From a virus: a stretch of DNA of 32,445 bases. Positions within the stretch are counted from its first letter, which is position 1. Each line of letters starts with the position of its first letter. The notes beneath the pieces were generated by a model. It did not search any database. It was not told the DNA's origin and worked only from the letters and a program-made list of their open reading frames with translations. The position numbers were made by a program, and so were the translations under genes. Below are positions 12,252-31,291 of this stretch, one piece after another. The stretch covers positions 1 through 32,445 of IMG/VR virus record IMGVR_UViG_3300046092_000054; one strand, given 5' to 3'.

Positions 12252-12275
12252 CATAACTGATTGGGTTTCATCGTG
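12252..12275 (+). repeat. partial copy (D) of the promoter repeat
   Basis: CATAACTGATTGGGTTTCATCG matches the first part of the repeat elements at 12336, 18761 and 31148 (CATAAC, then GTTGG-like, then TTC and ATCG), but the similarity fades after about 24 bases and no promoter box follows. It lies 84 bases upstream of full copy A, and may be an extra operator site. Confidence 0.5.
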
Positions 12276-12321
12276 TTGCAAAGCATTGAAAATGAATGCG
12301 TTATGAAAATACCTCATATTA

Positions 12322-12420
12322 TTAAAAAACATATACATAACTGATTGGTTCTCTATCAAGAAGTTTCTAAAATAGTTCAATAAAACAGCTCTAGATAGCC
12401 AGGATTGTGTAATTTTACCT
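12322..12420 (+). promoter_or_regulatory. promoter repeat A, upstream of the 12441 operon
   Basis: Within the 225-base gap 12216-12440. The block CATAACTGATTGGTTCTC at 12336, then AAGAAGTTT and AAAATAGTT, matches copies B (18761) and C (31148) nearly base for base, and the shared stretch with B begins earlier, at a TTAAAAAA tract. Like B and C it ends in a T-rich box, here TAATTTTA at 12410-12417, about 24 bases before the ATG at 12441. The TTTTTTTG run of B and C is missing. The remaining bases of the gap hold no gene. Confidence 0.6.
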
Positions 12421-12440
12421 TATATCAAACAATAAAACTT

Positions 12441-12755
12441 ATGCAATTACGAATCCATGTTAAAAATGCTCTTACTAAAGAGATCGTTACTGACCACGCA
12501 GCTGTAGTATTTGAAGATTATGACAAAGAACTTATGTGGAAAAACATGCAGTTGAATCACAAAGCACTTAGCGAAGCCAATCCAGATTGTCACGTTAATT
12601 TCGAATTAGATAACGGTGACTTTATTGCAGGAATGCCTCTTAATATGGAATTAGATCAAGCAAAAATAGATACAGGTGAAATGTCATGGAGATCTTACAT
12701 GAAAAAGTGGCACAACACAGACATAGAATATTCAGCAATGCCTTCATCAAATTAA
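12441..12755 (+). CDS. unknown phage protein, 104 aa
   Basis: Not recognised. The ATG at 12441 (context CTTATG) is chosen over an in-frame ATG at 12405 because the earlier one falls inside the promoter repeat. The protein is mixed alpha/beta, with QLRIHVKNALTKEIVTDHAA at the N-terminus and WRSYMKKWHNTDIEYS near the C-terminus. It is the first gene after promoter repeat A. Confidence 0.68.
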   Translation: MQLRIHVKNALTKEIVTDHAAVVFEDYDKELMWKNMQLNHKALSEANPDCHVNFELDNGDFIAGMPLNMELDQAKIDTGEMSWRSYMKKWHNTDIEYSAMPSSN

Positions 12756-12760
12756 TTAAT

Positions 12761-12862
12761 ATGATATCAGTAATACTATTCTTATTAGTTGTGTATATTG
12801 GTCACACATTAAACTTAACCGATACAGATATTAAATTCACAGACATTAAAACAAAAAAATAA
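12761..12862 (+). CDS. tiny predicted membrane protein, 33 aa
   Basis: A 33-aa frame fills the space between two genes. Residues 2-17 (ISVILFLLVVYIGHTL) form one hydrophobic segment, followed by a polar tail rich in Asp and Lys. Close packing (5 bases from the upstream stop, 3 from the next ATG) supports a real gene. The function is unknown. Confidence 0.5.
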   Translation: MISVILFLLVVYIGHTLNLTDTDIKFTDIKTKK

Positions 12863-12865
12863 GTT

Positions 12866-14023
12866 ATGATAAAGAAAACAAACAAATCGTTGGACGGTAC
12901 TTCATTTCATGGTGCTACAATTAGTGCTACGTTAGCAGATCTACAAATTATCTTAGGTGCGACAACGCATGCGAGCGATCACCACGATAAAGTACAAAAC
13001 GAGTGGGAATTGGAATTAGAAGACGGCACCGTATTTAGTGTGTACGATTGGAAAGAGTATCGTCGTTACACAGATAAAGAAACAATCGAATGGCATATCG
13101 GTGGTATGAACCTAAAAGATACATTCGTAGCTCAAGACACTTTAGTAGAAGCATTAGCTACTATGGAGACAAAGCCAAACTTGTTTCAATCAGTTAAGTC
13201 GTTTATTAATTCTAAGAACGTGGGCGATACATTCACTACTAAAGAATTTCACGCAGCAATGAACGGTATCGAACAACCAACTTGGTGGAAAAAATACAAC
13301 AAGCAATTATTTTATCGTAGCAATACTTACCGTACTTACTTAAGACATTTAGGATTCGTTAAAAATCCTGAGCGTGGATTATGGAAAGTAATATGTCACA
13401 TTCCAGCATGGTTAGATAGCGGTCATGTTAACAGCGCATTAGGTTATATGTACACAGCTGGGCCTGACGAAAATACAATTAGCTATTCTCATCCACAAGG
13501 TGCATGGACTGTTAAGCACTTAGATTATAAAGGTATGACGAGAGACGAAATTGTAACTAAGATCAGAGAATACGTTTTATTGTTTGGCGTCTTAAATACG
13601 CCTAAAGTAGAAGCTACTAAAGTAGAAGAGAAAGATGCTTTAGCAGAATATAGAATTGCAACAGCAAAATTAGCTAAAGATTTGGCTAGTGAAATTATCG
13701 GTGATGGCAAATCTCCTAACATATGGTTCGTTACTCAATCACCATACTACATGAAGTACAAAGATGGGTACGGAGAATCATTCTTATTAGATGGATTTGA
13801 TCCAGCAGAATATACCGAAATGTTTGGTCCTTTCTTTAGTTACAAAGCGGCATGCGATCAATACGACGAAATAGAATTAGAAGCATACGATGGAGTTGGT
13901 ACAGTAACTATAGAAGATCGTGTTATCGGTGTAGTCAAAGAGAAGTTCTTAGAAGAGAGAATAACGGTAGACTATTCTTACAACGAAGTTGATGATTCTA
14001 AATTTTATAACAAATCTAAATAA
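12866..14023 (+). CDS. unknown phage protein, 385 aa
   Basis: No family is recognised for the whole. Residues about 14-95 (FHGATISATLADLQIILG, then EWELELEDGTVFSVYDWKEY and EWHIGG) resemble a small module seen in many phage proteins. A lysine-rich helical part with TWWKKYNKQLFYRSNTYRTY (about 138-157) may bind nucleic acid or protein. The C-terminal third is acidic. No membrane segment or signal is present. The start has AAGTTATG. Confidence 0.7.
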   Translation: MIKKTNKSLDGTSFHGATISATLADLQIILGATTHASDHHDKVQNEWELELEDGTVFSVYDWKEYRRYTDKETIEWHIGGMNLKDTFVAQDTLVEALATMETKPNLFQSVKSFINSKNVGDTFTTKEFHAAMNGIEQPTWWKKYNKQLFYRSNTYRTYLRHLGFVKNPERGLWKVICHIPAWLDSGHVNSALGYMYTAGPDENTISYSHPQGAWTVKHLDYKGMTRDEIVTKIREYVLLFGVLNTPKVEATKVEEKDALAEYRIATAKLAKDLASEIIGDGKSPNIWFVTQSPYYMKYKDGYGESFLLDGFDPAEYTEMFGPFFSYKAACDQYDEIELEAYDGVGTVTIEDRVIGVVKEKFLEERITVDYSYNEVDDSKFYNKSK

Positions 14024-14029
14024 TAAATT

Positions 14030-14230
14030 ATGTTACACGAATACACTAAAGCTGAATTAAACAGCATGGAAACAATCGAACAAGCATGGGACGGTGATGA
14101 GTTAAAGATCAAAACCGATACTCATAGAATTTGGTTAGTACTACGAGAGAATAGACAATACAATGGAGACTACGTAGTAGAAACCTTAGTAAATGGTGGA
14201 TGGGAACAGGTATCTTATTACTTTAATTAA
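14030..14230 (+). CDS. unknown small protein, 66 aa
   Basis: Not recognised. It is beta-rich and has a tryptophan-containing C-terminus (YVVETLVNGGWEQVSYYF). It starts with AATTATG six bases after the upstream stop. It probably belongs to the operon of small genes that runs from 12441. Confidence 0.55.
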   Translation: MLHEYTKAELNSMETIEQAWDGDELKIKTDTHRIWLVLRENRQYNGDYVVETLVNGGWEQVSYYFN

Positions 14231-14244
14231 TAAAAATATAAAAC

Positions 14245-14520
14245 ATGACTCAGTCACAATTAAACAAATTATCTTTATCAGAGTTATCAAACTTAAATAG
14301 AATGGTAGTAGATACCATTAAAGCAAAGAAGAAAACTGATTCAAAAGAAAAGCGTAAAGCTTTCAGTATCGGAGATAAGGTAATAGTAGAACACAAGAAG
14401 ACAAGCGGTAAAGTATTCATCATAAAAGAGATCAGATTGACTAAAGCTACTGTACACGAAGTAGACGGATTTGGTAGATACGACGTACCTTTGGCAATGA
14501 TATCACCTTACTGCTATTAA
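14245..14520 (+). CDS. small protein with SH3/KOW-like C-terminus, 91 aa
   Basis: The N-terminal 40 residues are helical and lysine-rich (NLNRMVVDTIKAKKKTDS). The rest (FSIGDKVIVEHKKTSGKVF, then IIKEIRLTKATVHEV) has the look of a small SH3-like barrel of the kind found in KOW or Tudor-like domains. Such modules bind nucleic acid or protein. The function is unknown. Confidence 0.6.
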   Translation: MTQSQLNKLSLSELSNLNRMVVDTIKAKKKTDSKEKRKAFSIGDKVIVEHKKTSGKVFIIKEIRLTKATVHEVDGFGRYDVPLAMISPYCY

Positions 14521-14536
14521 TATAAAAAACAAACTT

Positions 14537-14803
14537 ATGTACATAGATAATTTAACAGGAATTGAATTCACTTTCTACACAGAAAGCCAATACGAAAATG
14601 CCCGCTTTGGTGGTTACATTGACAATTATAAGATCGCTAGAATTGAGGTGACCTACGACGATGGATCTAGAATAGATGCGCCGTACCACTCGTTCGAAGA
14701 GTTCGAGAACTGTGTAAAGAGAATGATGAATGCTAACAACGTAATCAGTGTATCTCCTTATCAAGCTGACCACTATTATGACATACAAGAATACGCAGAA
14801 TAA
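14537..14803 (+). CDS. unknown small acidic protein, 88 aa
   Basis: Not recognised. The sequence mixes tyrosine-rich beta stretches (YENARFGGYIDNYKIARIEV) with a short helix (FEEFENCVKRMMNANN). It starts with ACTTATG. Placed among other small unknown genes in the same direction. Confidence 0.58.
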   Translation: MYIDNLTGIEFTFYTESQYENARFGGYIDNYKIARIEVTYDDGSRIDAPYHSFEEFENCVKRMMNANNVISVSPYQADHYYDIQEYAE

Positions 14804-14821
14804 TTTTTAAAAACCAGTAAT

Positions 14822-15019
14822 ATGATACAAGACATAGAAAAAGAAATGCAGTTAATACAAGACAGAGAAAAGACAATGGCCAATCCAGAATTCCAAGTTT
14901 GGATGAGGGATTTGAATGTGTCCTCTTCTTACGAAGACAGATCAAGTAAGATAAACGCGTACGATCTACAGATGCAGTACAACACTAAAATGTATTCTAA
15001 ACTAAACTTTAACAAATAA
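14822..15019 (+). CDS. unknown small charged protein, 65 aa
   Basis: A helical, charged protein (IQDIEKEMQLIQDREKTMA near the start) that may form a short coiled coil. It is three bases upstream of the first metallopeptidase gene, so it is likely co-translated with it. No family recognised. Confidence 0.55.
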   Translation: MIQDIEKEMQLIQDREKTMANPEFQVWMRDLNVSSSYEDRSSKINAYDLQMQYNTKMYSKLNFNK

Positions 15020-15022
15020 GAT

Positions 15023-15628
15023 ATGAGACTAAGCAAAAACGATAAGACATTTATTGACACAGTAAAGAATGTGTGTAAGAAACACAAGATATCGTGTAAG
15101 CTTAAAGACGTAAGCTACTTAAAGCCAACACCTAAGATCAGATGTACCGGTTATTTTGACGATGAGAGTAGAACATTAGAGGTTGCAATGAAACAAAAAG
15201 ATTCTCTCGAATTGATAGTGCACGAATACTGCCACTTAACACAGTGGGTAGACAAGGCACCAGTGTATACGAAAGCTAGTAAGTATCTTCTCGCTTTAGA
15301 TAAGTGGATAGAAGGTAAGAACCTACCTATAGAAGTTATAGATGCAGCGATAAAAGGAATCGTTGATCTAGAATTGGATAACGAGAAGAGAGCTGTCGCA
15401 ATGATTCGTAAATATAATTTGAATATAGACAAAGACAAGTACATTAAGAAGGCGAATGCTTATCTATATTTTTATCATTGGATGAAAGAGACAAGACGAT
15501 GGAGCAAATCAAATAATATACCTTACAAGAACAAAGTTATTATTGATGCGATGCCAACCACATTTAGAGGTAGCTACGATAAATTACCAAACAGATTTAA
15601 AAAATTATACAAACAAGAAAATATATAA
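15023..15628 (+). CDS. predicted zincin metallopeptidase 1
   Basis: A 201-aa protein with an HExxH zinc site, LIVHEYCHLTQW (His67, Glu68, His71). A likely third ligand is a Glu in LELDNEKRAV (117-121), spaced as in gluzincin-like folds. No signal peptide is seen, so it would act in the cytoplasm. The rest has an N-terminal alpha/beta part and a basic C-terminus (MKETRRWSKSNN). It is the first of three different HExxH proteins within 2.6 kb. The substrate is unknown, and activity is inferred from the motif only. Confidence 0.72.
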   Translation: MRLSKNDKTFIDTVKNVCKKHKISCKLKDVSYLKPTPKIRCTGYFDDESRTLEVAMKQKDSLELIVHEYCHLTQWVDKAPVYTKASKYLLALDKWIEGKNLPIEVIDAAIKGIVDLELDNEKRAVAMIRKYNLNIDKDKYIKKANAYLYFYHWMKETRRWSKSNNIPYKNKVIIDAMPTTFRGSYDKLPNRFKKLYKQENI

Positions 15629-15629
15629 T

Positions 15630-15866
15630 ATGAAAGCAACATTAGAATTTGACTTAGAAGAAGGACAAGACAAGACAGCTCATTTACGATGCGTTAAAGC
15701 AGTAAACATGGCAGTAGCACTATGGGACATGGATCAATATTTACGAGGACTGATTAAATACGGAGAGCTAGATGATGCTATTTATAAAACACTTCAAGAG
15801 ACCAGAGATAAACTAAGGGAAATCATGAGTGAGAATTCAATTGATTTAGACGAGTTATTAAATTAG
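15630..15866 (+). CDS. unknown small acidic helical protein, 78 aa
   Basis: The ATG at 15630, one base after the upstream stop, is chosen over an in-frame start at 15543 that lies inside the metallopeptidase gene. The N-terminus is beta-like (KATLEFDLEEGQDK), the rest helical with an acidic end (SENSIDLDELL). No family assigned, though similar short proteins with LDDAIYKTLQETRDKLREIM-like helices are common in phages. Confidence 0.62.
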   Translation: MKATLEFDLEEGQDKTAHLRCVKAVNMAVALWDMDQYLRGLIKYGELDDAIYKTLQETRDKLREIMSENSIDLDELLN

Positions 15867-15870
15867 CATT

Positions 15871-16434
15871 ATGAAAATAAATAGAAAACGTGTAGCGTGG
15901 TATCTACAGAATATCAGAGCTAAGAACGAAGAACTAACCGACGAACAGTTAGTAGATAAGCTAGCCACGTGGATGGAAGTTAATCCTGAATGCATTGATA
16001 TGGACGGAGTATCTCATCAAGGTCGTTACTACTATTCTACTGTTGGTTATGGAATCTTTAGTTTATTGGGAGAAAGATATAGAATGGGTAGAGTAGAGAT
16101 ATTCGATAAGCAAAACGAAAGTGGATATCAAATAGCAGAAGGATCTTATTGTATGCCTTTCGTATCAGCTAATCAATTTGAAGACTTCATAGAGTCTATA
16201 GAAACAGATCTACCTATAAGCATAAACATAGGATCTCATGATTGGTGCGAAGCGGCTTGCGCTATAGATTTAGGCTTCGAGAATGCAGAGGCAATGAGAG
16301 ACAAAGCAAATGTTAAAGCGTATCGAGATAAGTTGAACGACGAATACGCTGTAGAACAGGGCTACAAGGATTTTGCAGACTTATTATCTAAAAGTAAATG
16401 GAATAAACCAAAACAAGATGAAGATACAATATAG
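15871..16434 (+). CDS. unknown phage protein, 187 aa
   Basis: Not recognised. The N-terminal 40 residues are helical (KRVAWYLQNIRAKNEELTDE). The middle is beta-rich and contains YYYSTVGYGIFSLLGERY, and a WCEAACAIDLGFENAEAM segment follows. It overlaps the second metallopeptidase gene by 17 bases, so the two are probably translated together. No membrane segment is evident. Confidence 0.62.
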   Translation: MKINRKRVAWYLQNIRAKNEELTDEQLVDKLATWMEVNPECIDMDGVSHQGRYYYSTVGYGIFSLLGERYRMGRVEIFDKQNESGYQIAEGSYCMPFVSANQFEDFIESIETDLPISINIGSHDWCEAACAIDLGFENAEAMRDKANVKAYRDKLNDEYAVEQGYKDFADLLSKSKWNKPKQDEDTI

Positions 16435-17104
16435 CATAAAAGAAATAAAACCAAATGTATTTGCAGTGATAGTACCAGACAGGTATCATAGAGCAATGTT
16501 ATTCATGAGAGTGCAAGAGTACTACGAGTCTCCCAACCCTAAATTCAGAGGCAAGGTGTTCTGTATATGGGACTACATAGAGTGGTACAGCAGAAAGAAT
16601 GGTGATAAGTTTAGTTATGCTTCAGATTGGGTAGGCTTTAACTTTCCTTTAAACGTAGCAGAGAAATGCTACGATAAAATGAATAGCATATTTGTATACT
16701 ACAGCGCATACGATAGTATCATGTTTGAAATACTAAGAGAGATTAGAAAAACTGTTAATGTGAAGTATGGACCTAAAACGAAGGCTTACGTAATTGGAGT
16801 ATCAGATACTGTATCAAGTACGTTTCAACATGAGTTGTGCCACGCGTACTATCACATAGATAACAAGTATAAGAAAGAAGTGGATGCCATTACCGAATTA
16901 ATAGATCCTAAAATATACAAGAGAATGCGTAAGAACTTAACAGATATGGGATACACTGAGCAGGTGTTCTACGACGAAGTTCAAGCATATACATGTATGG
17001 ATTCAGATTACTTTGAGTTCAATAATAAAATACCGGGATCTAAATTAAAGAAACTATCAAAGAAATATAAAGTCGTATATGAAAAATATATCAACCAAAA
17101 ATAA
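16418..17104 (+). CDS. predicted zincin metallopeptidase 2
   Basis: A 228-aa protein with FQHELCHAYYHID (His138, Glu139, His142) as the zinc site and a downstream Glu in YDEVQAY (Glu187) as the probable third ligand, in the order typical of gluzincin-like peptidases. I chose the ATG at 16418; an in-frame ATG at 16373 would lengthen the overlap with the preceding gene. No signal peptide is seen. It shares only the active-site layout with the proteins at 15023 and 17198. Confidence 0.72.
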   Translation: MKIQYSIKEIKPNVFAVIVPDRYHRAMLFMRVQEYYESPNPKFRGKVFCIWDYIEWYSRKNGDKFSYASDWVGFNFPLNVAEKCYDKMNSIFVYYSAYDSIMFEILREIRKTVNVKYGPKTKAYVIGVSDTVSSTFQHELCHAYYHIDNKYKKEVDAITELIDPKIYKRMRKNLTDMGYTEQVFYDEVQAYTCMDSDYFEFNNKIPGSKLKKLSKKYKVVYEKYINQK

Positions 17105-17201
17105 AGATAAAGAGAAGCTTCGTATTAAGAAGTACGAAAAGGCCAAGAAACAAGCCGTAGCAAATTTAACTAAAACAGAAAGAAAAGCATTAGGTTTATG
17201 A
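17079..17201 (+). CDS. very small basic protein, 40 aa
   Basis: A 40-aa frame that begins inside the end of the metallopeptidase gene (26-base overlap) and ends in an ATGA overlap with the next gene. About 14 of 40 residues are Lys or Arg (KDKEKLRIKKYEKAKKQ). The coupling at the 3' end and the otherwise empty gap argue that it is translated. It may bind nucleic acid, or act mainly as a leader for the next gene. Confidence 0.5.
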   Translation: MKNISTKNKDKEKLRIKKYEKAKKQAVANLTKTERKALGL

Positions 17202-17593
17202 GCAATGAAAAAAATTGGGTAACAAGAGCCACAGCACAGAAGATATTGGATTGGTGTTACTTTACCTACGGAAGGTCTAAGATTAACGGCGCATATCCAT
17301 CCCTAGAATTTAGGAAGCCTGATGATTACACAGGCGACGACTACGGATACTACGACGAGATAGATCAAACCATATTTGTCAATAGAGAAATTCACCATGA
17401 TCTAGAAGAGCTTGTTAAAACTATCATACACGAGTATACGCATTACGTTAAACATTCTATGCACGAGTATCAGATCTTGGCCAAGTATTTATCTCACAAT
17501 CAGAATCCATTAGAGAAGGACGCTTTAAAGGTAGAGAAAAGAGATTATAAAAAATGTCTTAGATTTCTTAAAAAAGAATACAACATTGGTTAA
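17198..17593 (+). CDS. predicted zincin metallopeptidase 3
   Basis: A 131-aa protein with IIHEYTHYVKH (His78, Glu79, His82) and a likely third ligand Glu in NPLEKDALKVEKRDY (106 or 113). It is short for a peptidase and resembles the SprT/WSS1-like or ImmA/IrrE-like minimal zincin core in size only. No signal peptide is seen. It starts in an ATGA overlap with the 40-aa gene. The substrate is unknown. Confidence 0.7.
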   Translation: MSNEKNWVTRATAQKILDWCYFTYGRSKINGAYPSLEFRKPDDYTGDDYGYYDEIDQTIFVNREIHHDLEELVKTIIHEYTHYVKHSMHEYQILAKYLSHNQNPLEKDALKVEKRDYKKCLRFLKKEYNIG

Positions 17594-17836: not shown

Positions 17837-18130
17837 ATGACGATTTTACAGGCAACGGTTGATAGTTCTAGTATTGGTTCAGCTTTTATGCAATACGGTA
17901 TATTGGGTGTATTAGCATTCTTATTAGGTTACTTTGCATGGCAACAGTACTTAAGACTTGTTAAGAAGAACGACCAACTAGAAGAAAAGATAGACAAGCT
18001 ACAAGAGCAGATGTTGAAGATACTCGTAGAAGAGAGAGACCGACTGGATACTTTGATAAGAGATAACACAGCCGCTCTACAAGAACTTCAGAAGACTATA
18101 TACAAATACATGGTTAAAAGCAAGGACTAA
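17837..18130 (+). CDS. small membrane protein with coiled coil (holin- or anchor-like)
   Basis: A 97-aa protein with one membrane segment (about residues 17-36, FMQYGILGVLAFLLGYFAWQ) and a long charged coiled coil to the C-terminus (KKNDQLEEKIDKLQEQMLK, then VEERDRLDTLIRDNTAALQE). The layout matches small BhlA-type holin-like proteins. A role in lysis or as a membrane anchor is possible but there is no endolysin next to it. It overlaps the next gene by one base. Confidence 0.6.
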   Translation: MTILQATVDSSSIGSAFMQYGILGVLAFLLGYFAWQQYLRLVKKNDQLEEKIDKLQEQMLKILVEERDRLDTLIRDNTAALQELQKTIYKYMVKSKD

Positions 18131-18714: not shown

Positions 18715-18726
18715 ATGCGTATTGGA

Positions 18727-18842
18727 AACCAATCAGTTACACATGTTAAAAAAGAATATGCATAACGCGTTGGTTCTCTATGAAGAAGTTTTAAGATACT
18801 CGATAAATAGTTTTTTTGTTTCGGTAGATAGCAGTACTTTTA
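18727..18842 (+). promoter_or_regulatory. promoter repeat B, upstream of the 18902 unit
   Basis: In the 243-base gap 18659-18901. It starts with AACCAATCAGTT (18727), then CATAACGCGTTGGTTCTC at 18761, GAAGAAGTTTTAA, a TTTTTTTG run at 18811-18818 and AGATAGCAGTACTTTTACC ending near 18845. The T-run ending in G lies at the -33 position, 16-19 bases before TACTTTTA (18835-18842), which is close to the Bacteroidetes -7 box TAnnTTTG. Transcription would start near 18848, leaving an AT-rich leader of about 50 bases. The repeat is shared with A and C. Confidence 0.65.
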
Positions 18843-18901
18843 CCCTGTTGCTGCCAAATAAGGCATCATATATATAAATTTTTTAATATTAAATAAAAGT
18901 T

Positions 18902-19825
18902 ATGAATACACTACAAACTACGTTGACCGCGTTACAGTCACAATTGGAATCTCAAAAAGAAGCGTCTAAGTATTACTACGACAATGTCTTCACTAAAGAA
19001 ACTGCTACCTTAGAAGCAAGTATCGTTGAATGGTTTTACAAATTTACAGGAGAAACTTACACAATTAAGATCGAAAGTGGCGGAGAAACGTTACAGATCT
19101 ATTCTCTTGGCGAAGAAAAAGCAGATATGTGGAGACACAATGCTATTACGATATACTACTACTCTCGATACAACGAAGAGGCTAAAGCAAAATTGAGTTA
19201 CTATTCTAAAGAAGTAGAGTACAACGATGCTAAAAGTATTGCTTACTTAAAAACTTTAGGTATGGTTGCAGTTTTATTGAATCAAATCAATTTCATGATG
19301 CCTACGTGGAAAGCTGAGTATCAACAGTATGCAGAAAAACGTTACGCTACATTCGAGCAACCCATATCTCACACTGAATTTGCTATACATAAAACAGAAA
19401 AGGAAATAGCCGAACAAGGTATTGCAGAATATAGCAAAACAGGTTTTCAACATACGATATCTTCTCGTACACAGTGCGTAAGACAGTATAACATTCCCTA
19501 TGATCAAGAAGGCTCATACATATTAGAAACAAATCCTCAGTACTTTGATCTACAAACTGGTAGAGGCAAATACGATCACGTACGAGTATATGCATTCGAA
19601 GTTGTAGGTCATGTCAAAAACGGTAAAGTAGAGATGAACGTAAAGACTACTGCTGTAGAAGACGGATCATTCAGTCCTGTAGTTGTTACTAAAGCAAGAT
19701 TCGACGACTTCATTGCAACCGTATACAATTGGGAGAACTTTGATAGAGCTAAATACAATGCCAAGCAAACTGAAAGGTATCTTGATCACATGAGTAAATT
19801 TACTACTGTAATAGAAATGGCCTAA
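18902..19825 (+). CDS. unknown phage protein, 307 aa
   Basis: Not recognised. The first 40 residues are helical, with a heptad-like stretch (LQTTLTALQSQLESQKEASK). The middle is tyrosine-rich (ITIYYYSRYNEEAKAKLSYY), and the C-terminal third includes KYDHVRVYAFEVVGHVKNGK. No membrane segment or signal is seen. It is the first gene after promoter repeat B, with the strong-looking AAATAAAAGTTATG start, so it is probably well expressed. Confidence 0.7.
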   Translation: MNTLQTTLTALQSQLESQKEASKYYYDNVFTKETATLEASIVEWFYKFTGETYTIKIESGGETLQIYSLGEEKADMWRHNAITIYYYSRYNEEAKAKLSYYSKEVEYNDAKSIAYLKTLGMVAVLLNQINFMMPTWKAEYQQYAEKRYATFEQPISHTEFAIHKTEKEIAEQGIAEYSKTGFQHTISSRTQCVRQYNIPYDQEGSYILETNPQYFDLQTGRGKYDHVRVYAFEVVGHVKNGKVEMNVKTTAVEDGSFSPVVVTKARFDDFIATVYNWENFDRAKYNAKQTERYLDHMSKFTTVIEMA

Positions 19826-21296: not shown

Positions 21297-21950
21297 ATGA
21301 ATTGGCATCTCATATATGATTCTATAATTCATAAAGCTATATCAGAAAATAGAAAGAAAAAACGTGATGTATATTATGAATCTCATCATATTATTCCAAA
21401 ATGCATGGGAGGAACTAATGATACAGAGAATTTAGTATTGTTAACTGCAAAAGAACATTTTATTTGTCATAGAATACTTCATATATTGAATCCTAACAAT
21501 AGAAAATTATTTTTAGCTTTTCAAAATATGTGCTATAGAATAAGCACTAAAGATAAAGATAGATTTAAGCCTAGTGGCAGAGTGTATTCGTATTTAAGAA
21601 TTAAAGCTAGAGAATATGCTGTTAGAGGACCTAATCATTATCTTTACGGAATAGAAAGTCATTTGCATCCAATGTATAATAAAAAACATACAGAAGAAAC
21701 CAGAAATAAAATGAAAATAAATCATGCTGATTTTTCAGGTAAAAACAATCCTCAGTATGGAATGACTGGATCTAAAAGTAAAAATAGTAAAAAAGTATGT
21801 CAATTAAATATCAATGGAGAATTAATAAAAATATGGGATTGTTTTAGAGACGTTGAAAGGCATTTAGGAATTTTACATAATAATATAACTAGAGTATGTA
21901 AAGGAACTAGAAAATCAGCAGGAGGATTTAAGTGGAAATATATAAGTTAA
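21297..21950 (+). CDS. HNH homing endonuclease with NUMOD3 and NUMOD1 modules
   Basis: A 217-aa free-standing homing endonuclease. The HNH core is SHHIIPKCMGGTNDTENLV then LTAKEHFICHRIL (about residues 29-61). NUMOD3-like DNA-binding motifs follow (HPMYNKKHTEETRNKM and NPQYGMTGSKS), and the C-terminus has a NUMOD1-like helix-turn-helix with VERHLGILHNNITRVCKG and GGFKWKY. Such enzymes cut a related genome lacking the gene and are copied in. Its base composition is visibly AT-richer than its neighbours. It abuts the preceding stop codon with no gap. Confidence 0.88.
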   Translation: MNWHLIYDSIIHKAISENRKKKRDVYYESHHIIPKCMGGTNDTENLVLLTAKEHFICHRILHILNPNNRKLFLAFQNMCYRISTKDKDRFKPSGRVYSYLRIKAREYAVRGPNHYLYGIESHLHPMYNKKHTEETRNKMKINHADFSGKNNPQYGMTGSKSKNSKKVCQLNINGELIKIWDCFRDVERHLGILHNNITRVCKGTRKSAGGFKWKYIS

Positions 21951-24571: not shown

Positions 24572-24628
24572 ATGAAAAAATACTATGAATTACGAAAGAG
24601 TATACAATCAGATAATAGAGAGAGCTAA
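24572..24628 (+). CDS. 18-aa leader frame or broken gene start before an HNH gene
   Basis: The AAATAAAAGTTATG start signal used by other genes of this genome points to the ATG at 24572, whose frame (MKKYYELRKSIQSDNRES) ends after 18 codons. The HNH gene begins 13 bases later in another frame and lacks that signal. This could be a leader peptide for the HNH gene, or the cut-off start of a gene disrupted by its insertion. Confidence 0.35.
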   Translation: MKKYYELRKSIQSDNRES

Positions 24629-25121
24629 GAATAGACATATAGAAGGTTATGTAGAAAAACATCATATCATTCCAAAGTGTGTTGGCGGAAGTGACGATAT
24701 ATCTAATATAGTAAAATTGACTGCTAAAGAACACTATCTTTGTCATAGATTATTATATGAAATATACCCTTATAAAAATGGTTTAATTTTCGCATATTGG
24801 ATGATGTGTAAAGTGGAATCGAATAACCAGCAAAGAGGAATTAGGATATCAAGTAGAGAATATGATAGACTAAGGAACGAATATAGTAGAGCATTGAAAG
24901 AGAGAGTTCCGTGGAATAAGGGATTAACAAAGAATGATGATAGAGTGGCCAAATATGCGAATGTGAAGAGATGGAATGGTGGCCTTAAAAAAGGAGATAG
25001 CCCAATATTAGACGAGCTCCATAGAAAATCTGCTGAAATGAGAGTAGGTCTAAAGAGACCAGAACATTCTATTAAAATGAAGGAAATATGGGAAAAAAGA
25101 AAGACGAATAACACTATCTAA
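24585..25121 (+). CDS. HNH homing endonuclease with NUMOD3-like C-terminus
   Basis: A 178-aa endonuclease close to the one at 21297. The HNH core KHHIIPKCVGGSDDISNIV and LTAKEHYLCHRLL lies at about residues 22-54, and the C-terminal part has VPWNKGLTKND and RPEHSIKMKEIWEKRK, a short NUMOD3-type DNA-binding module. It lacks the NUMOD1 end of the other copy. It is AT-rich like that copy. It is free-standing and sits between a small membrane protein gene and the UV endonuclease gene. Confidence 0.83.
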   Translation: MNYERVYNQIIERAKNRHIEGYVEKHHIIPKCVGGSDDISNIVKLTAKEHYLCHRLLYEIYPYKNGLIFAYWMMCKVESNNQQRGIRISSREYDRLRNEYSRALKERVPWNKGLTKNDDRVAKYANVKRWNGGLKKGDSPILDELHRKSAEMRVGLKRPEHSIKMKEIWEKRKTNNTI

Positions 25122-26102: not shown

Positions 26103-26107
26103 CTTAG

Positions 26108-27274
26108 ATGGCATCAGAAAAGAACATAAGTTTTACAAGACAGCAGCAATTCAAGTTTAGAAATGCGGTCGCTGATTATAAGTGGGCTGCAGGAGGAAAC
26201 GCACAATTCGTGGAACCTGACGTTCCTATAATACAGACTTCGGTAACTCCATCGTTTACAGCAACTCCTACTCCTACGCCTACCCCAAGTGCAAGCACCA
26301 CACCAAGCATATCTATTACTCCATCGGTTACCATCACTAGAACGCCGTCTATTACTCCATCGGTTACAGTGACTAGAACACCATCAATAACACCATCAGC
26401 AAGTATTACCCCGTCGGTTACAGTTACTCCTTCGGCTTCAATAACACCGTCTATATCAAAGACACCATCAATAACACCTTCGGCTAGTATTACTCCTTCT
26501 GTTACAGTAACTAGAACGCCATCTATTACTCCTTCAGCTTCAATAACGCCGTCTATATCAAAGACACCGTCTGTTACCGTTACTCCTTCTATATCAAAGA
26601 CGCCTTCAGTCACTCCTTCGCCTTCAGGAGCGGCTCCCGCCATTTTAGTATTTGATTTAGACGCTGCTAACTACTCAGCAGTGCCTACTAATGGATCAAC
26701 AGTCAATGGTTATACACTAGGCGTATCTAATGCAGGTTCTTCAATTACTTGGAATAGCGCTAATGGCGGAACATTTGCTAAATCAAATAATGTTGGTACA
26801 GATGTAATTTATGGAGGTCCAAACTATGTTACGGGACAAAGTTACACAGTGTTTATGGCGTATAAATTATCAGCAACTTCTGCCGGTAGATTGCTAAATA
26901 CTCAAAGCGAAGCGTCTAAAGATTGGATGATGGGGGCATATAATGGTAATCCAAATGCATTTTATCCAAACTTTACCGTAAATTTACCGTTAACCGGCGC
27001 AGATACTGTATGGCATTTTGCTTGGGCAACTTGGAACTCAACAACTACAACTGGTCAATTGTGGATAGCAACTAATACCGCACCAACTGCTTATACATAC
27101 ACTGCCACTAGTGCAGGTGGTGGAGGATTTAACCAATTAAGATTGTTTAGTAGATCTTCAGGATCAGAAGTTCAATCGGGCAATATAGCATTTGTTAAAG
27201 CGTACAATGGAGTATTAACATTAGCCGAAATACAGGCATTACACGCTACGTACAAAACAAGAATGGGATACTAA
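26108..27274 (+). CDS. fibre-like protein: TPS repeat linker plus LamG/concanavalin-like domain
   Basis: A 388-aa protein with three parts: a short N-terminus (ASEKNISFTRQQQFKFRNAV) that may attach to the virion; about 130 residues (44-174) of Thr/Pro/Ser repeats such as TPSITPSVTVTRTPS; and a C-terminal lectin-like beta sandwich (178-388, from LVFDLDAANYSAV to NIAFVKAYNGVLTLAEIQAL) of the LamG/ConA type. Phage proteins with TPS stalks and lectin tips usually project from the capsid or tail and bind sugars. Length variation of the stalk by repeat slippage is likely. No signal peptide is present, as expected for a virion protein. Confidence 0.82.
   Translation: MASEKNISFTRQQQFKFRNAVADYKWAAGGNAQFVEPDVPIIQTSVTPSFTATPTPTPTPSASTTPSISITPSVTITRTPSITPSVTVTRTPSITPSASITPSVTVTPSASITPSISKTPSITPSASITPSVTVTRTPSITPSASITPSISKTPSVTVTPSISKTPSVTPSPSGAAPAILVFDLDAANYSAVPTNGSTVNGYTLGVSNAGSSITWNSANGGTFAKSNNVGTDVIYGGPNYVTGQSYTVFMAYKLSATSAGRLLNTQSEASKDWMMGAYNGNPNAFYPNFTVNLPLTGADTVWHFAWATWNSTTTTGQLWIATNTAPTAYTYTATSAGGGGFNQLRLFSRSSGSEVQSGNIAFVKAYNGVLTLAEIQALHATYKTRMGY
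26237..26629 (+). repeat. tandem short repeats coding for the TPS stalk
   Basis: Imperfect units such as ACTCCATCGGTTACC and ATAACACCGTCTATATC are repeated throughout, varied at third positions. Similar blocks recur at larger spacing, for example a unit ending in ATATCAAAGACACC occurs at least twice. The repeats are coding, not a CRISPR array: there are no fixed repeats separated by unique spacers. Confidence 0.8.
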
Positions 27275-27302
27275 TTATAATGTCCTTACTTTAGACTTTA
27301 AT

Positions 27303-27333
27303 TTTACAGACAAAACAGGATTCAGTATATTTG
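27303..27333 (+). promoter_or_regulatory. Bacteroidetes-type promoter
   Basis: TTTA at 27303-27306, exactly 19 bases, then TATATTTG at 27326-27333, which fits the Bacteroidetes consensus TTTG-N19-TAnnTTTG with one mismatch. It lies in the only gap after the fibre gene. The predicted start is close to the ATG at 27338, so a message for that gene would be nearly leaderless. The surrounding 40 bases resemble those of the promoter at 28127. Confidence 0.6.
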
Positions 27334-27337
27334 ATCT

Positions 27338-27490
27338 ATGACCAAGAGTAAGATCATAGAGCAGATCAAGTACTGGAAAGAAGTATTCAAACCCACTGGA
27401 AACATGGGCAAATGGTACGCGTCAGTAAGAGTAGCGAAACTGACAGAGCAATTAGACAAACGCAATAAGAAAAGAAAGCATGTCAAATAG
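27338..27490 (+). CDS. very small basic protein, 50 aa
   Basis: A highly basic helical protein (KSKIIEQIKYWKEVFKPTG and a lysine-rich end LDKRNKKRKH). Its start is four bases after the promoter -7 box, so translation from this ATG would be leaderless or use a later start (ATG at 27404). It overlaps the next gene by 11 bases. Confidence 0.42.
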   Translation: MTKSKIIEQIKYWKEVFKPTGNMGKWYASVRVAKLTEQLDKRNKKRKHVK

Positions 27491-27695
27491 AAGAGACTTC
27501 CTCAAGTCCAGCTTGTTCTCCGCTATCGCACTCGCGCTCCCGATCAGTGCCAAACCCGAGAGCCTAATAAATACAAAGGCCACACCCGATAGAGCGTTCT
27601 ACACAAACGGAGTAGAGAGGATGAGGATATACAGCAACGGTAACGTAGGAATAGGAACTATCATGCCACCATACGAACTAAAAGTAATAATATAA
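27480..27695 (+). CDS. Tat-signal / fibre-motif chimeric small protein, 71 aa
   Basis: The N-terminus SNRRDFLKSSLFSAIALALP matches a twin-arginine (Tat) signal: RRxFLK, then a hydrophobic stretch ending near ISA. The remainder (ATPDRAFYTNGVERMRIYSN then GNVGIGTIMPPYELKV) is a fragment typical of Bacteroidetes and phage fibre or adhesin proteins (FYTNGxERMRI...GNVGIGT). If exported it would be a periplasmic or surface peptide of about 47 residues. The combination is unusual, and I know of no family with this layout. It shares a base with the next gene (TAATG). Confidence 0.62.
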   Translation: MSNRRDFLKSSLFSAIALALPISAKPESLINTKATPDRAFYTNGVERMRIYSNGNVGIGTIMPPYELKVII

Positions 27696-28105
27696 TGGAA
27701 GAGATTAACATTCAGGAGTGGGACGGCTTACAATACGACCCGATAAGCGACAAAACAAAAGTAGAACTAGCCTTGATAGATCTGTACAATAGACTAGCGA
27801 TGCAAATCCCGGCAAACCATCAAGAGATATTGAACGAGTTAGCAGAAAAGTTACTACCGCAAGAAGCCTCACTCACAGTCAAGCAAGTTGCCGGTTCGTT
27901 GGATGCTTCGATTGGCGACGAGATCGAGATACAAAAGTTACGAGTAGAAGCGAACAGTCCTTACAACGACGGTTTTACACGAGAGTTCTACGACAAGGAA
28001 TTGAAACGCTACAACGCAGGAACCAAAGAGTGGCCCGCACCACGTACCAAAGACGAGCAAGACTACATGTACAATTGGATACGTTCAAAAAGTGGTAGAC
28101 CCTAA
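27695..28105 (+). CDS. unknown acidic protein, 136 aa
   Basis: Not recognised. It is mixed helical, with WDGLQYDPISDKTKVELALI near the start and YNDGFTREFYDKELKRYNAG toward the end. The gene starts on the last base of the preceding stop codon. Its composition is clearly richer in G and C than the genes left of 27.2 kb. Confidence 0.62.
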   Translation: MEEINIQEWDGLQYDPISDKTKVELALIDLYNRLAMQIPANHQEILNELAEKLLPQEASLTVKQVAGSLDASIGDEIEIQKLRVEANSPYNDGFTREFYDKELKRYNAGTKEWPAPRTKDEQDYMYNWIRSKSGRP

Positions 28106-28126
28106 CGGTCTTACCGCAAACTTAAA

Positions 28127-28158
28127 TTTCCCCAAAGATGGGAATAGCAGTATATTTG
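28127..28158 (+). promoter_or_regulatory. Bacteroidetes-type promoter
   Basis: TTTC at 28127-28130, 20 bases, then TATATTTG at 28151-28158, a perfect TAnnTTTG. Transcription would start near 28164 and give a short leader to the ATG at 28182. This promoter is why I start the next gene at 28182 rather than at an in-frame ATG at 28092. Confidence 0.6.
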
Positions 28159-28181
28159 ATTATAACAAAACAATAAAGGTC

Positions 28182-28457
28182 ATGACAAACAAGTATCAGA
28201 AAAGCCCATTGAGTCTAATCGAGGGCGGAAGCCGGATTAAGATCACATTCAAGAACGGGATCGAAAGAGAGTACGACAACATTAAGGACGTGTCGGCTTA
28301 CGTAGCAAAAGTGTTGAGCGAGAGCGATTACATGATTAACCGTATCGAGATGGAGAAGGAAGTAGTGACCACCACAAAAGAGTGGTCTCCTCTATTTGGC
28401 AGAAGCCGTTACGGAACCTACGGATCGGAGTCTCACTCTTACAACGCAGAAATATAG
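28182..28457 (+). CDS. unknown basic protein, 91 aa
   Basis: Begins TNKYQKSPLSLIEGGSRIKI and has TFKNGIEREYDNIKDVSAYV in the middle, a beta-then-helix layout. The C-terminus (LFGRSRYGTYGSESHSYN) is glycine/serine/tyrosine-rich. The start is set by the promoter just upstream. No family recognised. Confidence 0.6.
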   Translation: MTNKYQKSPLSLIEGGSRIKITFKNGIEREYDNIKDVSAYVAKVLSESDYMINRIEMEKEVVTTTKEWSPLFGRSRYGTYGSESHSYNAEI

Positions 28458-28461
28458 ACCA

Positions 28462-28734
28462 ATGACTAGCACACAGTTCAACGAAAAATACAAGCAGTGG
28501 ATACCGGAAGGGTGGAGTGGACTAGACTTCGATATACCGCAGGTGACCGAGTACATGGACACGGTAATGCAAGACATGATCCTAATACCGGGTTTTGAGT
28601 TACACCAAATCAAATTAAAGTTCGATTGGCCGAGGTTCTATTTTACTACCGACTTTAAGGACAAGGGCACAGAGTTGGCAATTGCAGTAAAAGTACAAGA
28701 GAGGATCAACGCAATAATAAAACAAAAGCGATAA
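28462..28734 (+). CDS. small phage protein of a WP/PQVxxYxD type, 90 aa
   Basis: Contains FNEKYKQWIPEGWSGLDFDI then PQVTEYMDTVMQDMILIPGF and LKFDWPRFYFTTD, a pattern I recall from small phage and bacterial hypothetical proteins. The ATG at 28462 follows the upstream stop by four bases; an in-frame start at 28396 would lie inside that gene. It is followed at three bases by the next gene. Function unknown. Confidence 0.6.
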   Translation: MTSTQFNEKYKQWIPEGWSGLDFDIPQVTEYMDTVMQDMILIPGFELHQIKLKFDWPRFYFTTDFKDKGTELAIAVKVQERINAIIKQKR

Positions 28735-28737
28735 GTT

Positions 28738-28947
28738 ATGACAGAAAAGGAGAAAGCCGAAAGTTTGGTGGACGAGTTCTACCAATACACCAATACCAAC
28801 TCAAGAGAGAACGCCAAAGCCTGCGCAAGGATATTGGCAAAGGAGGTAATAGTAAAACTAAAGTACAACAAGGTCATGAAGGTCGTTGTGGATTATTGGG
28901 AAGACGTGTTGCTAGAGATAGAGAAGGTACCAGCATTTAAAGAGTAA
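28738..28947 (+). CDS. small helical protein, EKA/YW family member 1, 69 aa
   Basis: TEKEKAESLVDEFYQY at the start, AKACARILAKEV in the middle and VVDYWEDVLLEIEKV at the end. The layout EKAxxLxxxYxQ...AKxCxxIxxxxV...YWxxVxxEIEK recurs at 29097 and 29844. Such short proteins are frequent in Bacteroidetes phages; the function is unknown to me. Start context is AAGTTATG. Confidence 0.62.
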   Translation: MTEKEKAESLVDEFYQYTNTNSRENAKACARILAKEVIVKLKYNKVMKVVVDYWEDVLLEIEKVPAFKE

Positions 28948-28952
28948 CCGAT

Positions 28953-29077
28953 ATGAAAACAGCAATTAAATGGAATGTAAATAAAAAACCAGAGTGCATT
29001 ACTAATTACATAGTAGATAAAGGTGGGGAAGTAAAGCACTAAATGTATATGGTTGGATTGAAATACCTATTTATTAA
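28953..29077 (+). pseudogene. degenerate small phage gene (frameshifted remnant)
   Basis: An ATG at 28953 opens a 29-codon frame, KTAIKWNVNKKPECITNYIV and so on, ending at 29042. Directly after it, in another frame, the sequence reads NVYGWIEIPIY to a stop at 29077, the usual end of a common small phage protein that begins MKTAIxWxVNKKP. One interpretation is a single gene with a frameshift and a lost middle. Confidence 0.4.
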
Positions 29078-29096
29078 TTAGCTAAAAAAATAAACT

Positions 29097-29297
29097 ATGT
29101 TAACACCACAAGAGAAAGCAGTAGAACTGTACAGCCAATACGAACAGTTGGGTAGGGACTTCACAAGAGGTGTGTCTATGCGTGAGTTCGCCAAACAGTG
29201 TACATTAATATGTTGCAATCAAGTGTTAGCAGATATGGGAGCGGACAGAGGCCACTCGTATTGGACAGAAGTTAAAGCAGAAATAGAGAAGCTATGA
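29097..29297 (+). CDS. small helical protein, EKA/YW family member 2, 66 aa
   Basis: LTPQEKAVELYSQYEQ at the start, REFAKQCTLICCNQVLADMG in the middle, and SYWTEVKAEIEKL at the end, the same layout as the proteins at 28738 and 29844. The paired cysteines (ICC) could bind metal, but they are not shared. Overlaps the next gene by four bases (ATGA). Confidence 0.62.
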   Translation: MLTPQEKAVELYSQYEQLGRDFTRGVSMREFAKQCTLICCNQVLADMGADRGHSYWTEVKAEIEKL

Positions 29298-29509
29298 TCA
29301 AGAGACTAAACAGTAGGGACTCAAAGCTTCTAACGGCAATCCTAAACAGTCCAACAGAAAGGATGGTATGGAGAGATTGGATTAGCTATTGGAAGAGCGT
29401 GAGAACAGTAACTAACTTGGGAGTCGGTCTCGTATGGAGAGGCTCGTACAGAAACCGAGGCTATTTCAGTAGAAGACTCGCACTAACATTAATAAGAATA
29501 GAGTTATGA
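29294..29509 (+). CDS. unknown basic protein, 71 aa
   Basis: A very basic, tryptophan-rich protein (KRLNSRDSKLLTAI, then RMVWRDWISYWKSVRTV, and RRLALTLIRIEL). It overlaps both neighbours by four bases (ATGA), which supports translation although the sequence is unusual. No family recognised. Confidence 0.5.
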   Translation: MIKRLNSRDSKLLTAILNSPTERMVWRDWISYWKSVRTVTNLGVGLVWRGSYRNRGYFSRRLALTLIRIEL

Positions 29510-29757
29510 AATACAGAATAAAACAGTACGAAGCCTTGTGTACCAGATATAAGGGAGGCAAATGGGCAACAGAACAGGTAGAGACTAGATACCAAATAGA
29601 AATGAGAGAAGCAGGCTTTTGGGGTTACATATGGGGATGGAGCGATATAGGAGGCACTTTAGATACAGAAGAGGCTGCAAAGAATAGAGTGGCGCTTTAT
29701 AAGAACAAAGTTTCAGTTAAAGAACCTAATAATATTAGATATATTAATATAGATTAA
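29506..29757 (+). CDS. unknown small basic protein, 83 aa
   Basis: It has aromatic-rich segments (YRIKQYEALCTRYKGGKWAT and FWGYIWGWSDIGG) and a lysine-rich C-terminus. The sequence resembles small Bacteroidetes-phage proteins of unknown role. It starts in GAGTTATG, four bases inside the preceding gene. Confidence 0.58.
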   Translation: MKYRIKQYEALCTRYKGGKWATEQVETRYQIEMREAGFWGYIWGWSDIGGTLDTEEAAKNRVALYKNKVSVKEPNNIRYINID

Positions 29758-29767
29758 ACCTACAGTT

Positions 29768-29947
29768 ATGATAATACTAGCATATTGGATGGCCACAACC
29801 GTATACGGAGTCTATTGGTTAATCAAGAACCCGGCAAGCAGATTTGCAAGCGATACCCACACCAAGAGAGAAAGCCCAAGAGCTAATAGACTTCTACTAC
29901 CAATTCCAAGACATAGACGCAGAGTACTGCATGATACAGAACAGTAA
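29768..29947 (+). CDS. small membrane protein, 59 aa, overlapping the next gene
   Basis: The ATG at 29768 has CAGTTATG and opens a 59-codon frame. Residues 1-20 (IILAYWMATTVYGVYWLI) form a membrane segment like that of the 38-aa protein at 24450. The frame's second half is arginine-rich and lies over the start of the 29844 gene in a different frame, so its true end is uncertain. It may be a broken gene. Confidence 0.42.
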   Translation: MIILAYWMATTVYGVYWLIKNPASRFASDTHTKRESPRANRLLLPIPRHRRRVLHDTEQ

Positions 29948-30119
29948 GCTATGCACAAGAAGACTAATACAAGAGGTACTCGCATCAACAAGCATACAGA
30001 TACAAATAGAGTACTGGCTACAGGTGAATACAGCAGTAGACGAGATCTCATATATAGATAACCCGATAAAGAGAAGCGAGATCTCTAGACAAGACTGGAT
30101 AAGTCCAAAGACTAAATGA
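29844..30119 (+). CDS. small helical protein, EKA/YW family member 3 (TTG start), 91 aa
   Basis: Starts at a TTG. The sequence TPREKAQELIDFYYQF, then MIQNSKLCTRRLIQEVLA and IEYWLQVNTAVDEI follows the layout of the genes at 28738 and 29097; the TPxEKA stretch begins six residues in, as in member 2. A C-terminal extension follows (SEISRQDWISPKTK). The frame lies over the second half of the 29768 frame. Confidence 0.55.
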   Translation: MQAIPTPREKAQELIDFYYQFQDIDAEYCMIQNSKLCTRRLIQEVLASTSIQIQIEYWLQVNTAVDEISYIDNPIKRSEISRQDWISPKTK

Positions 30120-30158
30120 CATATTAATAGACACGATGACACCAAAACCAATGCCACA

Positions 30159-30374
30159 ATGACACTAAAAGAATTAAAAGACTTTATTAACACGGTCCCG
30201 GATGCCTTTAACGATTACAAGGTAGAGACGGCAGAGTACATGGGAGGAAACGAAGAAGAAGCTAAATACAGTAACGAGAAACCAGTAATAGCAGTATACG
30301 TTAGAGAGGACACAGAAGAGGTACTAATAATGACCAAAAGTCTTGTACAAATAAAAGATCCAATTCCCTGCTAA
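30159..30374 (+). CDS. small phage protein, 71 aa (MTLKELKDFI type)
   Basis: Starts MTLKELKDFINTVPDAFNDY, a common opening of small phage and bacterial proteins (MTxKELKxxLxxxPD), with a beta-rich acidic end (PVIAVYVREDTEEVLIM). The function is unknown to me. It is three bases from the next gene. Confidence 0.62.
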   Translation: MTLKELKDFINTVPDAFNDYKVETAEYMGGNEEEAKYSNEKPVIAVYVREDTEEVLIMTKSLVQIKDPIPC

Positions 30375-30377
30375 AAT

Positions 30378-30805
30378 ATGACAACCGACGAATTAACCAT
30401 AGAAGAAAGAATAAGACTAGTAGTACCAGAAGTAAGAGACACTGTATTCTTTATTCCCCACCCAAGAGCGATAACAGAGAAAATACTAGACAGGTATTCA
30501 ATACCAAGAACAAGAGAATATTTAAAGTATCTAATATACACCACACAGGGCGTATTAAATCGTATGGACGTAGTAGAAGACTACCTAAAGGACTGCATAA
30601 AAGGATTCGAAGGAGCATACACACCGTTTAAAGAGAGCGTAACGTTCAACTACGGATTCAGCTTAGACCCTTAAGCGAAGAGGAGTTCTTGTACAAAGGA
30701 GAACAGTTCGTACAAGACGAGAGATGGTACACAAAACCTCCATGGGAATTAAAAATGAACTTAGATACAGAGTCAATACAGGGTTGGTTACACGACGGAC
30801 ACTAG
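30378..30805 (+). pseudogene. small phage gene interrupted by a -1 frameshift (or programmed frameshift)
   Basis: The frame from 30378 encodes 98 residues ending GFSLDP-stop at 30674. Reading one base back at ACCCTTAA, the -1 frame continues PLSEEEFLYKGEQFVQDE then RWYTKPPWELKMNL to a TAG at 30805, giving about 142 residues. The joint reads smoothly (FSLDPLSEEEF). It could be a mutation or assembly error, programmed slippage at CCCTTAA, or two genes, with the second starting at the TTG at 30689 after GAGGAG. Confidence 0.5.
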
Positions 30806-30822
30806 ACAATCTGTCATAGCCT

Positions 30823-31074
30823 GTGCATAATTTGGCACGTGTATCAAAATCGCAAGCCAATATGGCATTAGATCTGGTAATAAAACCAAGTGTAGGGAAA
30901 GAGGTAATAGGGAGCGAGACTGCCCAAGGTGTGCAACTTATAAATATCGCCCAATCTAACACCCGCAATCCAGAAATCTATATATCCACCCAAACGTACA
31001 CCAATCAGCCGTTTCAATACAAAACTGACCTGCAGCGCGACCGAGACGGTAAAGTATACGGTGCAAGTGCTTGA
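30823..31074 (+). CDS. doubtful 83-aa frame
   Basis: An 83-codon frame (MHNLARVSKSQANMALDLV onward). It has no recognised motif, no GTTATG context and a weak coding look, with QSNTRNPEIYISTQTYT-like polar composition. It is listed because otherwise 30806-31291 would be an empty 486-base gap. That gap ends with the repeats at 31088 and 31135. Confidence 0.28.
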   Translation: MHNLARVSKSQANMALDLVIKPSVGKEVIGSETAQGVQLINIAQSNTRNPEIYISTQTYTNQPFQYKTDLQRDRDGKVYGASA

Positions 31075-31087
31075 AAATCAGCAGATT

Positions 31088-31130
31088 GTTCCATGTAGAA
31101 CACTTGCAGAACCGGTTCCATGCAGAACAT
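31088..31130 (+). repeat. two direct repeats of a GTTC-N6-GAAC dyad
   Basis: GTTCCATGTAGAACAC at 31088 and GTTCCATGCAGAACAT at 31115 are nearly identical, start 27 bases apart and each contains an inverted GTTC...GAAC. They sit just upstream of promoter repeat C. They look like paired operator sites for a dimeric regulator. Confidence 0.5.
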
Positions 31131-31134
31131 TAGT

Positions 31135-31229
31135 AACCAATCAGTTGCATAACGCGTTGGTTTCTAATCGAGAAGTTTTAAAATAGTTACTAAAATATTT
31201 TTTTGGTACGCCAGAAAGCAGTACTTTTA
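31135..31229 (+). promoter_or_regulatory. promoter repeat C, upstream of the 31292 gene
   Basis: It starts with AACCAATCAGTT at 31135, the GCAT loop, and AACGCGTTGGTT at 31151, an imperfect palindrome (nine of twelve Watson-Crick pairs and one wobble). GAGAAGTTTTAAAATAGTT, the TTTTTTTG run at 31198-31205 and AGCAGTACTTTTACT follow, matching copy B through the TACTTTTA box at 31222-31229. Transcription would start near 31235, about 57 bases before the ATG at 31292, which itself carries AACCAATTAGTTATG. Confidence 0.65.
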
Positions 31230-31291
31230 CTATGTAGCCGCCCACCCCGTAATAGTACGAGCATCGGCAACCAGATGAAAACCAATTAGTT

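Follow-up and report, generated by a model that had tools for sequence, protein, structure and literature searches.

The window examined here, virus record IMGVR_UViG_3300046092_000054 at its whole length of 32,445 bp, is a fragment (32 kb) of an uncultured T4-like phage, a virus of Bacteroidota bacteria. It contains three copies (A, B and C) of a dispersed promoter repeat. On balance, their sequences favour the view that the three copies are promoters of one small phase-locked regulon, and that a box in each is read by a phage-encoded dimeric activator. Bacteroidota use an unusual sigma-A promoter. With a defined box, a promoter, two distances and one candidate protein, activation by a phage factor becomes directly testable. 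In addition, the module serves as a marker of an uncultured phage clade and of the units co-regulated in that clade.

Anatomy and geometry of the module

The repeat is bipartite, with a sigma-A-type promoter part and an 18-bp box upstream. Read towards the gene, the promoter part consists of an AT-rich block, a T-run ending in G or A (the -33 element, T-run/TTTG), a spacer of 17 bp and the -7 element TANNTTTA. The box (AACTGATTGG-TTN-YCAAT) is near-palindromic and starts about 71 bp before the -7 element. All three window copies contain the word CATAAC-NNN-TTGGTT, followed after exactly nine bases by GAAGTTT. When boxes were picked by their left half alone, the right half YCAA(T) appeared and conservation stopped there. 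The box is therefore a self-contained unit, a near-palindrome of the kind that a dimeric protein would be expected to bind. Additional boxes lie upstream. Tandem ones follow at intervals of about 25 bp; for inverted ones the spacing is often 43 bp, the most frequent inverted spacing in the relatives. Boxes occur in both orientations and in varying numbers, and many modules have direct boxes only.

To collect modules, an iterated profile search was run over 1.4 Mb of related sequence, with the same sequence reversed as the control. It returned 137 profile matches and 86 distinct full modules, against none in the control. All 86 carry TANNTTT at -7, which ends in A (TANNTTTA) in 85, in C in one and in G in none. 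A T-run ends 16-20 bp before the -7 element in 76 of the 86; modules of the copy A type lack it. The AT block is conserved across the 86 modules, with a sequence that varies between the box and the -33 element. In Flavobacterium, a member of the Bacteroidota, the sigma-A -7 element is TAnnTTTG at -12 to -5, so that transcription starts 12 bp after the element begins (PMC9723704). Predicted starts were placed by this rule, 12 bp after the first -7 base.

As judged from its sequence, the putative promoter part fits the Bacteroidota sigma-A pattern except in the last -7 base. The likeness lies in the TAnnTTT -7 element and in a T-rich/TTTG -33 element about 17 bp upstream. Unlike that pattern, nearly all -7 elements here end in A and not in G, copy A has no -33 element, and the upstream region holds a lengthy stretch of conserved AT-rich sequence as well as the 18-bp phage-specific box. 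The original prediction had each copy ending in a box near the Bacteroidetes -7 element. This holds for the sequence TANNTTTA, which is not the textbook TANNTTTG.

A fixed geometry had also been proposed, and the one we found is stricter than that proposal, with 71 or 61 bp between box and -7 element. Measured from its first base, the promoter-proximal box lies 70-72 bp before the -7 element in 73 modules, 60-62 bp in 12 and 77 bp in one. A pattern scan independent of the profile gave the same two peaks, plus the steps of about 25 bp for extra boxes. With the start placed by the 12-bp rule, the boxes are centred near -72 or -62. The two classes lie one helical turn apart, so the face of the helix is kept. 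Distances quantised in helical phase, which characterise the regulator sites of class I activator promoters, are thus found in 85 of the 86 modules.

Spread among related phages

The prediction that further copies would turn up in related phages, in gaps 5' of genes, was borne out. Of the 86 modules, 78 lie mostly outside open reading frames (ORFs), compared with 7.6% of random placements. A same-strand ORF follows within 130 bp in 77 of them (24% at random), and an ORF of at least 40 aa starts within about 110 bp downstream in 84. That no coding feature underlies the repeat is likewise upheld, and a coding origin of the modules was rejected because they avoid ORFs.

A first pattern scan of viral contigs gave 14 loci, with the full element in 11. 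The other three (L007, L010 and L016) were set aside, as their flanks look like chance matches. One of the 11, the contig G001 (174,359 bp), encodes a T4-type terminase, and we read further ORFs in it as PolA-type DNA polymerase, GroEL and PhoH. The nearest named phage to its terminase is Flavobacterium phage vB_FspM_immuto, at 55% identity. The immuto genome has a gene order in common, in which glycosyltransferases, small conserved proteins and an HNH protein lead to a small-gene region. This genome (Immutovirus) is without the box, except for an isolated one-mismatch match at 95698. Among named phages, no close match to the first 25 kb of the window was found.

Within G001, boxes with at most one mismatch occur at three promoters only, plus a lone match at 100805. 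In G012, a 179.6-kb contig, the box forms about eight clusters; assuming circular permutation of the contig, all of them fall within a single arc of about 62 kb. Most of these clusters (L097-L105) have, 30-130 bp upstream, short inverted words rich in GAGCTC (CCATGAGCTCCTGG..GAGCTC), which may be terminators of the preceding unit.

Several trivial origins were considered and rejected. Chance does not account for the repeat, since the reversed control holds no full module and the loci of a helix-turn-helix (HTH) protein, described below, have 114 boxes compared with 4 for the reversed sequence. A host repeat or transposon end was rejected on a search of 84,980 bacterial and archaeal genomes, where the stricter box pattern had no match and the looser one a single match, inside a coding region as judged from the flanking frame. 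Boxes that seemed to be without a promoter (L114, L117, L118, L120 and L134) look like the outer boxes of a module on the opposite strand. That module is seen directly for L134, and the other four loci have L134's flank. The limited literature set searched held no relevant mention of the box sequence.

The three copies in the window

A profile built from other phages matches the window in exactly three places, at 18763-18847 (E = 1e-16), 31150-31234 (6e-16) and 12338-12421 (2e-14); the next match has E of about 4. A profile from distant phages only still finds the three copies (E of 1.5e-13, 7e-13 and 2.5e-7). With up to two mismatches allowed, the window holds 12 occurrences of the core pattern where 3.8 are expected, and no shuffle reached 12. 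As the original prediction had it, the copies stand in gaps (225, 243 and 217 bp) directly 5' of the ORFs at 12441, 18902 and 31292. The partial copy reported at 12252 is present as one box, and its promoter part is missing. Some details needed revision. The separate upstream word AACCAATCAGTT described for B and C is there, and it is the reverse complement of the main box, which gives an inverted pair. Copies B and C thus carry an inverted pair and the -33 element TTTTTTTG; copy A carries a direct partial copy and a weak inverted box, and has no such -33 element.

Copy A begins with the distal partial box AACTGATTGGGTTTCATC (12255-12272, plus strand), one mismatch from the CATAACNNNTTGGTT core. 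The weak inverted box AACGCATTCATTTTCAAT follows at 12285-12302 on the minus strand, with two mismatches; close relatives have a better inverted box, AACGCGTTGATTNCCAAT, at this position. The promoter-proximal box AACTGATTGGTTCTCTAT (12339-12356, plus strand), like those of B and C, was found by both box scan and profile. The -7 element TAATTTTA (12410-12417, plus strand) begins 71 bp after the start of this box, with no TTTG at -33, and transcription is predicted to start at about 12422. The first gene of unit A (12441-12755, plus strand) encodes 104 aa of unknown function.

Copy B has a perfect inverted box upstream (AACTGATTGGTTTCCAAT on the minus strand, 18721-18738, 0 mismatches). On the plus strand there follow the promoter-proximal box AACGCGTTGGTTCTCTAT (18764-18781), the AT-rich UP-like block GAAGTTTTAAGATACTCGATAAATAG (18785-18810), which is conserved across the 86 modules, and the -33 element (18811-18818), whose T-run ends 17 bp before the -7 element TACTTTTA (18835-18842). 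The predicted start is at about 18847. The first gene of unit B (18902-19825, plus strand) encodes 307 aa, also of unknown function.

In copy C the upstream inverted box (AACTGATTGGTTACTAAT, 31129-31146, minus strand) has one mismatch. It is followed on the plus strand by the promoter-proximal box AACGCGTTGGTTTCTAAT (31151-31168), the AT-rich UP-like block GAAGTTTTAAAATAGTTACTAAAATA (31172-31197), the -33 element (31198-31205) and the -7 element TACTTTTA (31222-31229), with a predicted start at about 31234. A further inverted box (AACTAATTGGTTTTCATC, 31274-31291, minus strand) lies downstream, at about +41 to +58 from the predicted start, and ends at the ATG of the gene at 31292. It is kept in four related contigs (G001, G002, G003 and G013). 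This first gene of unit C (31292-31582, plus strand) encodes 96 aa of unknown function.

A candidate regulator

The regulator is probably one dimeric DNA-binding protein, phage-encoded and activating. As its gene we suspect that of an HTH protein in unit C (32258-32443, plus strand), which is cut by the window end and has 82 aa in the relatives. We regard it as the best candidate regulator of the box, not as an identified binder. The protein occurs in 32 viral-contig loci, and the module stands alongside in 30 of these. The two exceptions are a contig whose sequence begins 930 bp ahead of the gene and a distant 256-kb phage, G022, whose HTH protein is 75% identical. The protein was not found in Immutovirus, nor in any other of the named phages. 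When four box-bearing genomes were compared with Immutovirus and G022, 12 common families were absent from both and seven were absent from Immutovirus alone; the HTH protein is among these seven.

AlphaFold models the protein as five helices (mean pLDDT 74). It has a weak, non-significant likeness to Cro/XRE and LacI domains. The Pfam LacI match (E = 0.068) is below the cut-off, and sequence matches in the Protein Data Bank (PDB), searched with the alignment, have E of at least 0.29.

The exceptional phage, G022 (IMGVR_UViG_3300012346_000380), holds about 34 copies of the promoter half (L187-L199), for example at 18025-18088, 21517-21571 and 231621-231681 on the minus strand. In several of these, a hairpin resembling a terminator (AAGCCCAAATTTTTTAGTTTGGGCTTTTTT) has a T-tract that continues into the -7 box; many have an upstream word of their own, ATTGTTCGTAACTTT. 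By its predicted hairpin and promoter, the G022 element is a fused terminator-promoter.

Proposed activation and its alternatives

Under activation, the dimeric regulator would bind the box, some seven or six turns of the helix ahead of the start. Docked there, it would contact RNA polymerase, probably through the alpha-subunit C-terminal domains (alpha-CTDs) seated on the UP-like block. This contact would raise transcription from all three units in concert. Of the three promoters, copy A would be the most regulator-dependent because the -33 TTTG is absent; the host polymerase could also use B and C straight away. If the regulator is the HTH protein, it would be able to damp its own operon through the inverted box at the start codon of unit C.

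Several points weigh against this account. An upstream box alone does not separate activation from repression. G022 has the HTH protein and promoter halves but no TTGGTT box, so either the box may have some other binder or, in G022, the HTH protein may recognise a different word. That protein and box occur together might be explained by nothing more than common descent. The structural model of the protein is moderately confident, with no significant PDB match (Foldseek E of at least 1.7). Finally, the 61-bp class could descend from one ancestral 10-bp deletion, in which case its count overstates the number of independent events.

The main rival is repression, in which the boxes would be operators of a phage repressor that closes the units later in infection, and the fixed distance would reflect descent of one copied, shuffled cassette. 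The box just downstream of the predicted start of copy C, at the start codon, would suit a repressor, as would the variable orientation and number of boxes and the weak, non-significant similarity of the HTH protein to Cro/XRE and LacI repressors. Whole modules are also alike enough for a common origin. What makes repression rather unlikely in our view is the position of the obligatory box, which in the 86 modules is centred at about -72 or -62, outside the core that polymerase covers. Only two distances occur, one turn apart, whereas simple steric repression usually works from a site closer to the core and has no need of phasing. Between box and -33 element, the AT block differs among modules in sequence and by 10 bp, yet the phase is kept. 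We consider it unlikely, more so than repression, that these are strong early promoters for the unmodified host polymerase, as in T4, with the box read by alpha subunits or a host protein. In favour, UP elements and additional conserved regions are also seen in T4 early promoters (PMC2988021), the AT block is similar to an UP element, and the promoter half alone is multicopy in G022. The box, though, contains GC, is near-palindromic and stands alone in tandem and inverted arrays; it is also specific to this phage lineage, with none in Immutovirus, a Flavobacterium phage.

Very improbable is a mobile promoter/stem-loop (PeSL-like) cassette, whose inverted boxes would form an RNA hairpin or a recombination site that ends the upstream transcript. 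The phage is T4-like, inverted boxes can fold, and G022 does have the promoter half fused to terminator-like hairpins. Because of the inverted boxes, the box region folds somewhat better than shuffles (mean z of -1.7, with 32 of 86 below -2). Against such a cassette, no U-tract follows the stem, many modules hold direct boxes only, inverted-box pairs show few compensatory changes, and box positions 9 and 13 vary against base pairing (odds ratio 0.43). An RNA element or hairpin as the main role was rejected, as pairing within the box is not maintained, U-tracts are missing and transcription is predicted to start only downstream of the box. Activation by a phage-encoded dimer is the reading that we retain. 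A bolder version is offered tentatively, as possible but doubtful: that the box and the HTH protein form an undescribed activator, acting on the Bacteroidota sigma-A polymerase from -72/-62, clade-wide and autocontrolled via the start-codon box. In the limited literature set searched, no account of how T4-like phages of Bacteroidota control transcription was found.

Comparison with known systems

Class I activators such as CRP use sites centred at -71.5 and -61.5. The modules resemble this arrangement in box centres that lie one helical turn apart, before the DNA that alpha-CTDs would bind. They differ in a box that is phage-lineage specific, in having several boxes, tandem or inverted, and in a binder that is putative.

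Two T4 promoter classes can also be compared. Like T4 early promoters (UP/-35/TGn/-10), the modules are promoters of nearly identical sequence that stand before units of small genes, with UP-like sequence and additional conserved positions (PMC2988021). Unlike them, they number three per 174-kb genome (up to about eight in G012), and a separate near-palindromic operator is present at -72 or -62. In T4 middle promoters, which require MotA, the MotA box takes the place of the -35 element at about -30 (PMC2988021). The modules would be alike in that a phage-specific word recruits a phage regulator to host-polymerase promoters. They differ in a box placed about 40 bp farther from the start, with the -33 element usually present; a MotA-type position, centred near -30 in place of the -35 element, was looked for and not found, the boxes here being centred near -72 or -62.

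PeSL cassettes, as far as they are summarised in PMC4177764 and PMC4503421 (Arbiol 2010; Comeau 2014), are conserved, promoter-containing and dispersed between T4-like gene blocks. By that summary the modules are similar, as conserved promoter cassettes scattered between gene blocks, and dissimilar in having an operator box in place of an adjoining terminator stem-loop. Because no terminator adjoins, the cassette does not strictly qualify as a PeSL; a stem-loop terminator joined to the promoter was found in the distant G022 and not in the modules.

Neighbouring genes

Unit A encodes three neighbouring small proteins with HExxH-type motifs (HEYCH, HELCH and HEYTH) at 15023-15628, 16418-17104 and 17198-17593. 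They are possibly small metalloproteases, and two of the three fall in the set common to box-bearing phages. Two related HNH/homing endonuclease-like genes (21297-21950 and 24585-25121) have no counterpart in G001, where the genes that flank these positions stand contiguous. They are likely mobile insertions. The protein encoded at 26108-27274, which is similar to that of the G001 ORF 67080-68966, has a long TPS[IV]TPS-type repeat; the underlying DNA repeats are imperfect, 36 bp and longer. A strong, terminator-like inverted repeat (AAGTCAACCTATAGGTTTACT / AGTCAACCCATAGGTTGACTT, 9160-9213) lies between two glycosyltransferase-like genes.

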